From contig JAJRSX010000139.1 of NCBI GenBank assembly GCA_024278555.1, forward strand, positions 1 to 19,424: a stretch of DNA of 19,424 nucleotides. Direction: 5' to 3'. The notes under the pieces were generated by a model that was given only the letters and a program-made list of their open reading frames with translations, made no database searches and had not been told where the DNA came from. The position numbers and the translations under genes were made by a program. This document shows, piece after piece, positions 804-18,859 of the stretch. Source of the stretch: a bacterium. GTDB taxonomy: Bacteria > CG2-30-53-67 > CG2-30-70-394. The stretch's first letter is position 1; each line of letters begins with the position of its first letter.

Positions 804-1283
804 AACGGAAGAGCTTCCTATCTCGTCACCGTGTGCGGAGAGATTGCGCCTGCCACGCCCTCATCGTTGCAGGGGAGGGGAGATGTCGCGGGGATGACAA
901 CGCGGCTGCGGAGACGGACTTGAAGGCAATTTCACCGCAGCGGCGCAGAGGTCGCAAAAAACCACAGAGAACGGGGGACAGTCTCCGCTTGGCTTCTCTC
1001 CCGAGGTTACGGTTGGCGGCGGGGCGGATCTTGCCCAAAGACCCCCACGGATCCATCTGTCTCACAAAATCGGTAGCGGCAGAACCCCCTCCCTGGGCGG
1101 TTTGCCATGAGAGGCGAGACAGCACCGCAGCCTGGTCATCCCCTGCGGTTCTCTGCGGCCTCGGTGTCTCTGTGGTGAGAACCGCCCTCGGGGCCGCTGC
1201 CGCCCCTCCCGGCACCCCGCCTTTAGCAGTCCGCCGCAAGCCGTAAGCTGTACGGTCGCGCCTCCCCCGCCTCTGACCCGCCC
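804..1283. other. Gene-free interval of about 480 bases
   Basis: No open frame here on either strand resembles a known protein. The frames present are GC-driven and have no ribosome binding site. The recognisable content is a pair of facing CACAGAG-type repeats, annotated separately at 931-1181. The roughly 165 bases between the arms show no remnant of a GxxExxY gene or transposase. The interval must hold the promoters for tadA (leftward) and the iron-sulfur gene (rightward), but I could not pick out convincing -35/-10 pairs. Confidence 0.5.
931..1181. repeat. Facing pair of CACAGAG-type repeats with no gene between
   Basis: The left arm (931-974) begins TTCACCGCAGCGGCGCAGAG. The right arm, read on the minus strand from 1181, begins TTCTCACCACAGAGACACCG. 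The arms share an imperfect inverted match over about 38 bases. The same family, in the same outward-in arrangement, flanks the GxxExxY gene near 18414-18856. Here about 165 bases of non-coding sequence lie between the arms, so this may be an emptied or non-autonomous version of that unit. That relationship is inference. Confidence 0.55.
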
Positions 1284-18413: not shown

Positions 18414-18856
18414 TTACTACAGAGACATAGAGGGCACAGCGAGGGCTTGGGGGTTTAGAGAGCGAAGCGGCGGATGCCGTCTTTGAGTACGGGGACATGA
18501 AAGTTGATCAGCAAGCCCAGACGGTATCCAGAAAGGCGCAGGTAGGAGAGGAGTTGCGCCTCGTGTATGGGCAGGACTGTCTCTACTGCCTTCAGCTCGA
18601 CGATCACGGCGTTGTCGACCACGAGGTCGAGGCGGTAGTCGCAGCCCAGTCGTATGCCCTTGTAGTCGAGGGGGAGGTGCACCTGCCGGATGAAGTCCAG
18701 GCTGTGCGACGCAAGCTCGTGGCACAGCGCCTCCTCGCAAGCAGACTCAAGCAGCCCCGGGCCTGGCCATCGGTGCACCTCAATAGCTGCACCGATGATC
18801 TCACCGGTGAGCTGACCACCCAGCTCTCTGTGCCCTCTGTGTCTCTGTGGTGAAAT
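18414..18856. mobile_element. GxxExxY cassette bounded by inverted CACAGAG-type repeats
   Basis: The left arm (18414-18445) reads TTACTACAGAGACATAGAGG and continues GCACAGCGAG. The right arm (18856-18821, minus strand) reads ATTTCACCACAGAGACACAG and continues AGGGCACAGAGAG. They agree at nearly every position over about 30 bases. The enclosed 375 bases hold almost exactly one gene, and its codons 2-12 are written by the right arm. The right arm begins a few bases after the stop of the SLC13 gene. The enclosed DNA is visibly less GC-rich than either neighbour. These are features of a small transferable gene unit; no transposase is present. Confidence 0.6.
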
Positions 18857-18859
18857 CAT
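18455..18859 (-). CDS. GxxExxY family protein (PD-(D/E)XK nuclease-like fold)
   Basis: The 134-residue product has the family's opening helix LTGEIIGAAIEVHR followed by GPGLLESACEEAL. The motif that names the family normally reads GxxExxY; here the positions are G35, E38 and C41, so the Tyr is replaced by Cys. Downstream, RQVHLPLDYKGIRLGCDYRL, DLVVDNAVIVELKAVE and QLLSYLRLSGYRLGLLINF follow. The Asp and ELK residues match a PD-(D/E)XK-like nuclease core, but the biological role of the family is unknown. The N-terminal MISPQRHRGHREL is encoded by the CACAGAG-type repeat and is probably not part of the fold. ATG 18859 is two bases after the SLC13 stop, and GGGGA inside the end of that gene can serve as ribosome site. 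It may thus be expressed as a passenger of the SLC13 transcript. Confidence 0.87.
   Translation of the reverse strand: MISPQRHRGHRELGGQLTGEIIGAAIEVHRWPGPGLLESACEEALCHELASHSLDFIRQVHLPLDYKGIRLGCDYRLDLVVDNAVIVELKAVETVLPIHEAQLLSYLRLSGYRLGLLINFHVPVLKDGIRRFAL

Follow-up and report, generated by a model that had tools for sequence, protein, structure and literature searches.

Genes of the GxxExxY family were found to be bracketed, in many bacterial and archaeal phyla, by two inward-facing DNA arms that are each built from three similar 7-mers. The 7-mer varies together with the protein, copies of the arm are dispersed in the genomes that carry the gene, and the number of copies is linked to the presence of the gene. 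We consider the most probable explanation (about 0.6) to be that GxxExxY is a chromosomal PD-(D/E)XK endonuclease that targets the triple 7-mer iteron flanking its own gene, the two forming a repeat-spreading system. The family has only passing mentions, with no role given, in the open-access literature, where we found neither a link between GxxExxY and a repeat nor the sequences of the repeat in any relevant setting.

The window, the whole stretch of 19,424 nucleotides analysed here, corresponds to contig 116 of the genome designated G000 (3.06 Mb, 211 contigs). Its GxxExxY gene lies between the genes for an SLC13-type transporter and a PolB-like 3'-5' exonuclease. The features of the window are as follows.

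18455..18859, minus strand: GxxExxY gene, 134 aa, PD-(D/E)XK nuclease family (TIGR04256/PF13366 profile matches, predicted fold and invariant D78/E88/K90)
18416..18443, plus strand: downstream (3') arm, inward, TACAGAG-A-CATAGAG-GG-CACAGCG (repeat and probe scans)
18824..18851, minus strand: upstream (5') arm, inward, CACAGAG-A-CACAGAG-GG-CACAGAG, overlapping the first codons (repeat and probe scans)
1148..1179, minus strand: arm of a second, gene-less unit, CACAGAG-A-CACCGAG-GC-CGCAGAG (mismatch-limited scan, 1151-1174, and sequence)
933..959, plus strand: degenerate inward partner of the 1148..1179 arm, CACCGCAGCGGCGCAGAGGTCGCAAAA (direct reading; missed by the mismatch-limited scan)

The two arms around the gene are 28 nt each, 89% complementary and separated by 380 nt. 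Both point inward and follow the plan CACAGAG-N-CACAGAG-NN-CACAGAG. A CACAGAGRCACAGAGGGCACAGAG probe matched the right arm exactly and the left arm with 3 mismatches; allowing up to 3 mismatches, it had 3 matches in the window versus 0 expected from dinucleotide shuffles. The second unit, at about 933-1179, has a spacer of ~190 nt without a gene. When the inverted repeat was considered alone, a match of 25/28 was also obtained with one or more of 200 Markov shuffles, overlapping palindromes being allowed. The arms are nevertheless regarded as non-random because the genome contains 88 copies (up to 3 mismatches) against 0 for the reversed pattern. The first-pass annotation had placed the gene inside inverted CACAGAG-type repeats and had described it as less GC-rich than its neighbours; both statements were confirmed, with a GC content of 60% for the gene versus 71-72% for the neighbours. 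It had also pointed out that one repeat encodes the N-terminus. Translation would start at the ATG at 18857-18859, 2 nt beyond the SLC13 stop codon, and most of codons 2-12 (ISPQRHRGHRE) do fall within the right arm, but an N-terminus of this kind is possible in only 25 of 98 loci. We therefore treated it as incidental and dropped it as a functional feature. Residues 1-9, which are largely repeat-encoded, are disordered in the AlphaFold2 model.

The window protein passes the curated cut-offs of both family models, TIGR04256 (E 6e-41, 139.4 bits versus a cut-off of 35) and PF13366 (E 5e-39, 133.7 bits versus 22), and thus belongs to the GxxExxY/PDDEXK_3 family. In its AlphaFold2 model (pLDDT 90.5), the nearest solved folds are PD-(D/E)XK nucleases, namely Cas4 (4ic1, Z 9.8, the best), Hjc, BglII, BamHI and XisH, in a comparison where Z below 8 is common by chance. 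Asp-78, Glu-88 and Lys-90 are invariant in a 51-sequence alignment, so that the PD-(D/E)XK catalytic core is conserved. Foldseek gave no match in the PDB at E ≤ 0.001, and no solved structure was matched by sequence at E ≤ 1; the fold assignment is accordingly based on the family model together with the catalytic residues and on structural Z-scores of middling size. GxxExxY is predicted to have a PD-(D/E)XK fold with conserved catalytic residues. It shares the predicted fold and the D...E-x-K core with Cas4, Hjc resolvases, BglII/BamHI and XisH, but differs from these nucleases in being tied to dispersed iterons, a tie that we did not find for them.

To what extent GxxExxY genes are bracketed elsewhere was determined with a scan that assumes no sequence and looks for three similar 7-mers spaced 8-10 nt apart with their reverse complement on the other side. 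Inverted triple 7-mers were present on both flanks of 98 of 177 GxxExxY loci from many phyla, versus none of 446 neighbouring windows. In an earlier set of eighty further loci from bacteria and archaea, at least two tandem inward units were seen on both sides in 49/74, versus 0/257 neighbouring windows. Mispaired flanks taken from different loci were positive in 24/177, because the consensus is widely shared. Flanks in direct orientation were positive in 36/177, which we attribute mainly to loci with the whole pair on one side. Many loci outside the 98 have two-unit or wider-spaced arms when inspected by eye. Two other statistics were set aside: a strand-reversed score as an orientation control, which is the same test mirrored, and a local alignment score, which was too noisy since gapped alignments run on. 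The comparison across genomes that the first-pass annotation had proposed thus revealed bracketing far more often than in neighbouring DNA, so that its first refuting condition, repeats being no commoner around these genes than in other places, did not hold. Its description of a short repeat-bounded unit was borne out as well: the length between outer arm ends has a median of about 500 bp, and the unit therefore holds the GxxExxY gene and nothing else. Its CACAGAG-type label, by contrast, was too narrow; repeats do flank the gene, but they form a 7-mer family that differs by protein clade.

The 7-mers seen at the loci include CACAGAG, CGCAGAG, CACGGAG, CACGAAG, CACAAAG, CGCAAAG, CGCAGAT, CACGGAT and CACGAAT, among others. 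Before the tree was tested, ten 7-mers had their frame assigned manually; one ambiguous locus was excluded. When the last base of the 7-mer (...AG or ...AT) was mapped onto a tree of 97 proteins, only 6 changes were required versus 23.6 after shuffling (0/200 shuffles as low); this tree has few columns and leaves many forks unresolved, and the claim is limited to clustering. Phylum labels on the same tree are clustered yet split, with 21 changes where the least possible is 6. Protein and 7-mer thus co-diversify. Six genomes (G073, G184, G192, G196, G203 and G344) contain paralogues with different arms; that paralogues of different clades have different arms within one genome argues against one host-wide repeat. 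The dispersed GAT motif was present in 14/18 genomes with a classified ...T-type locus versus 4/25 others (p 1e-4). No contrast was observed between ...G-type loci and the exact GAG pattern (16/31 versus 5/12), as expected if many such loci carry AAG or GGG units; we do not count this as positive evidence. Linked inheritance of gene and arms alone could produce the match between protein and repeat without any recognition. It could not account for gene-less copies at scattered sites, nor for the way in which these depend on the gene.

That dependence was examined in 386 sampled genomes, 89 of which (about a fifth) have a GxxExxY gene. The exact GAG triple occurs in 43 genomes, of which 34 are gene-positive (odds ratio 20, p 8e-17); 459 copies are in gene-positive versus 15 in gene-negative genomes. 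The corresponding figures for the GAT triple are 25 of 29 genomes (odds ratio 29, p 7e-14) and 305 versus 11 copies. Either triple is found in 59 genomes, 47 of which have the gene (p 1e-24). These p-values take genomes as independent; most of the genomes belong to different families. Neither exact motif was detected in 42 of the 89 gene-positive genomes, partly because the scan covered exact GAG and GAT triples from a larger set of 7-mer types. The repeat that flanks the enzyme gene is therefore also dispersed in the same genome, and repeats are more numerous where the gene is kept.

A similar relationship was seen among seven species of the genus of G054, which is probably cyanobacterial as judged from its HIP1 density. 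G054 and G065, which have the gene, contain 136 and 123 arms. G060 and G063 retain only a remnant of the 3' end of the gene at the same locus, with no family match elsewhere in the genome, and contain 34 and 21 arms. G061, G062 and G064, with neither gene nor remnant, have 3, 0 and 1. Arm number thus tracks gene presence, which is suggestive, coming from one genus and one or two losses. The arms of G054 are single 30-nt modules, GGGAAC followed by three 7-mers, located at unrelated loci. In G054, the arm that is intact at G060:C1:2876767 is split at the orthologous position by a different repeat, GTAGGGGCACGCCCTTGTGGCTGCCC.

Recognition of the iteron by GxxExxY, maintaining or spreading the arms, is the simplest reading because it covers the bracketing, the cognate variation, the co-occurrence and the decay after gene loss. 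In the scheme that we propose, the unit of about 0.5 kb consists of the gene alone between two inward arms, and copies of the arm, single or as gene-less inverted doublets, lie scattered between other genes. The enzyme would bind its own iterons and nick or cut there, the arms might then be copied to new places via repair or a transposition-like step, and the arm population would decay once the gene is lost.

By analogy, the best reading is a REPIN-RAYT-like partnership that would be run by an unrelated, iteron-recognising nuclease. RAYT genes occur in single copy on the chromosome, with their own repeat on the flanks, and REPINs are more numerous in those E. coli genomes that possess a RAYT (PMC8049555, PMC3116915). 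GxxExxY is likewise chromosomal and has at its flanks the repeat of which further copies are dispersed through its genome; here too the repeats occur as inverted doublets and singlets, are matched in class to the enzyme clade and are more numerous in gene-keeping genomes, and the gene is absent or nearly so from plasmids. The GxxExxY-iteron pair is nonetheless not a member of the REPIN-RAYT group. RAYTs are HUH (Y1) tyrosine transposases, whereas GxxExxY is a predicted PD-(D/E)XK protein matching only PF13366/TIGR04256. REPIN-RAYT repeats are palindromic and tagged with GTAG or CGTC, whereas that of GxxExxY consists of three direct 7-mers, and some GxxExxY genomes, unlike those of REPIN-RAYT, hold several cognate pairs. 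With homing endonucleases GxxExxY shares a small nuclease gene whose spread could come from cutting its own target; the target differs, as it is a repeat present in many copies and on either flank of the gene, and not a gene-less allele.

An iteron that varies with the protein is a concrete candidate substrate for GxxExxY. If the proposed reading is true, it accounts for a large class of interspersed repeats that spans many phyla, and it represents a second, independent origin of the arrangement, known from REPINs, of a repeat population plus a chromosomal enzyme; the varied cognate pairs would suit learning how a very small nuclease recognises sequence. We advance more tentatively the broader idea that a lone PD-(D/E)XK nuclease, relying on none of the DDE, HUH or serine/tyrosine recombinase chemistries, may recognise a triple 7-mer and thereby spread arms of 24-30 nt, together with inverted doublets, through many bacterial and archaeal phyla in dozens of cognate enzyme-iteron pairs, which would amount to a widespread undescribed class of mobile repeats.

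The chief alternative is an ordinary autonomous transposon, with GxxExxY as the transposase, the arms as terminal repeats and the gene-less doublets as its MITEs. The core unit indeed resembles IS elements and MITEs, being short, with one gene between inverted repeats and gene-less derivatives that have the same ends, and its distribution across phyla is scattered. In G000, where the 88 arms plus three more seen with a degenerate pattern were counted, 25 of 26 neighbouring arm pairs within 600 nt are inward, with recurrent offsets of 97 and 130, and the gene-less units have a common spacer, as expected for copies of one element. The sole close pair that is not inward consists of the arms on either side of the contig 142 gene. 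Each of the three intact GxxExxY genes in G000 carries arms; two are inside a pair, and the third is flanked on either side by a full inward pair. In the SLC13-exonuclease gap of the congener G001, gene and arms are absent (213 nt versus 484), but the spacers cannot be aligned into a clean junction. Neither this gap nor the cyanobacterial genus nor the G054/G060 arms yielded a clean insertion junction or target duplication of the core unit. The gaps of G060 and G063 were rejected as clean empty sites; part of the 3' end of the gene is kept there, and they are therefore deletions. The polymorphic arms of G054 and G060 were likewise rejected as insertions, since they lie in low-complexity DNA that turns over, and show no target duplication. 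In contrast to IS elements and MITEs, no target duplication was found at the arms, the ends are direct iterons, and single arms are common (0 of 12 examined G054 arms had a partner). One or a few gene copies stand beside tens to over a hundred arms, up to 126 for one gene. GxxExxY is also nearly absent from plasmids (8 of 72,556) and viruses (1 locus among viral contigs); arms are present at this viral locus and in a record from Bacteroides finegoldii as well. Taken together, these properties make a transposon of the ordinary kind unlikely.

Still less likely is that other transposases or recombination account for the spread of the repeats, with GxxExxY only targeting or tolerating them. Many G000 units in fact lie within longer MITEs whose terminal repeats are GCCTATCCCCTTAGCTCATGA. 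Copies of 400-454 bp with these ends and a nested iteron pair lie at L018 1333-1787, L012 1448-1881 and L013 1368-1771, and 9-bp target duplications (ATTGCCCTA, TCGCGTAAA) were found in 2 of the 3 MITE copies with both ends. MITE context was assigned to 42 of 69 examined G000 arms (~60%); other transposases have therefore contributed part of the copies in this genome. The other 27 arms, however, lie outside such context. Arms are also rare in gene-negative genomes (15 of 474 GAG copies), their number drops with gene loss in the cyanobacterial genus, and the repeat type tracks the protein clade, all of which argue against this alternative. A second long unit with other ends (AGAGGATCAGCGGAAA ... 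TTTCCGCTGATCCTCT) encloses the same iteron pair at L011 (about 1269-1736) and L027 (about 1255-1736).

It is very improbable that the arms are operator or terminator elements regulating GxxExxY, with the dispersed copies as regulon sites or remnants: the arms do lie near the two ends of the gene (at median distances of 56 and 43 nt to the conserved domain) and inverted pairs can form a strong hairpin, but this leaves unexplained the single 30-nt arms at unrelated G054 loci, the gene-less doublets with conserved spacers and the presence of a matching arm on both sides.

Several local arrangements of the arms were also recorded. A short hairpin is located just outside many G000 arms (L002, L068-L106), with stem changes on both sides (GACCTTGAAGGTC, GGCCTTGAAGGCC, CCCTCGAAGGGG); it is absent from the G054 arms examined. 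Outward close pairs with offsets of about 40-46 nt, unlike those of G000, are present at G055:C1:250403-250466, G152:C146:4182-4250 and G152:C334:3459-3528. At G214:C423:51-3157, plus- and minus-strand GAT arms alternate near a GxxExxY gene, resembling a REPIN cluster, with a period of about 108 nt at the start. In G153, a genome with 61 GAT triples, at least six of the ten GxxExxY matches lie within about 41 kb (G153:C1:786477-827837).
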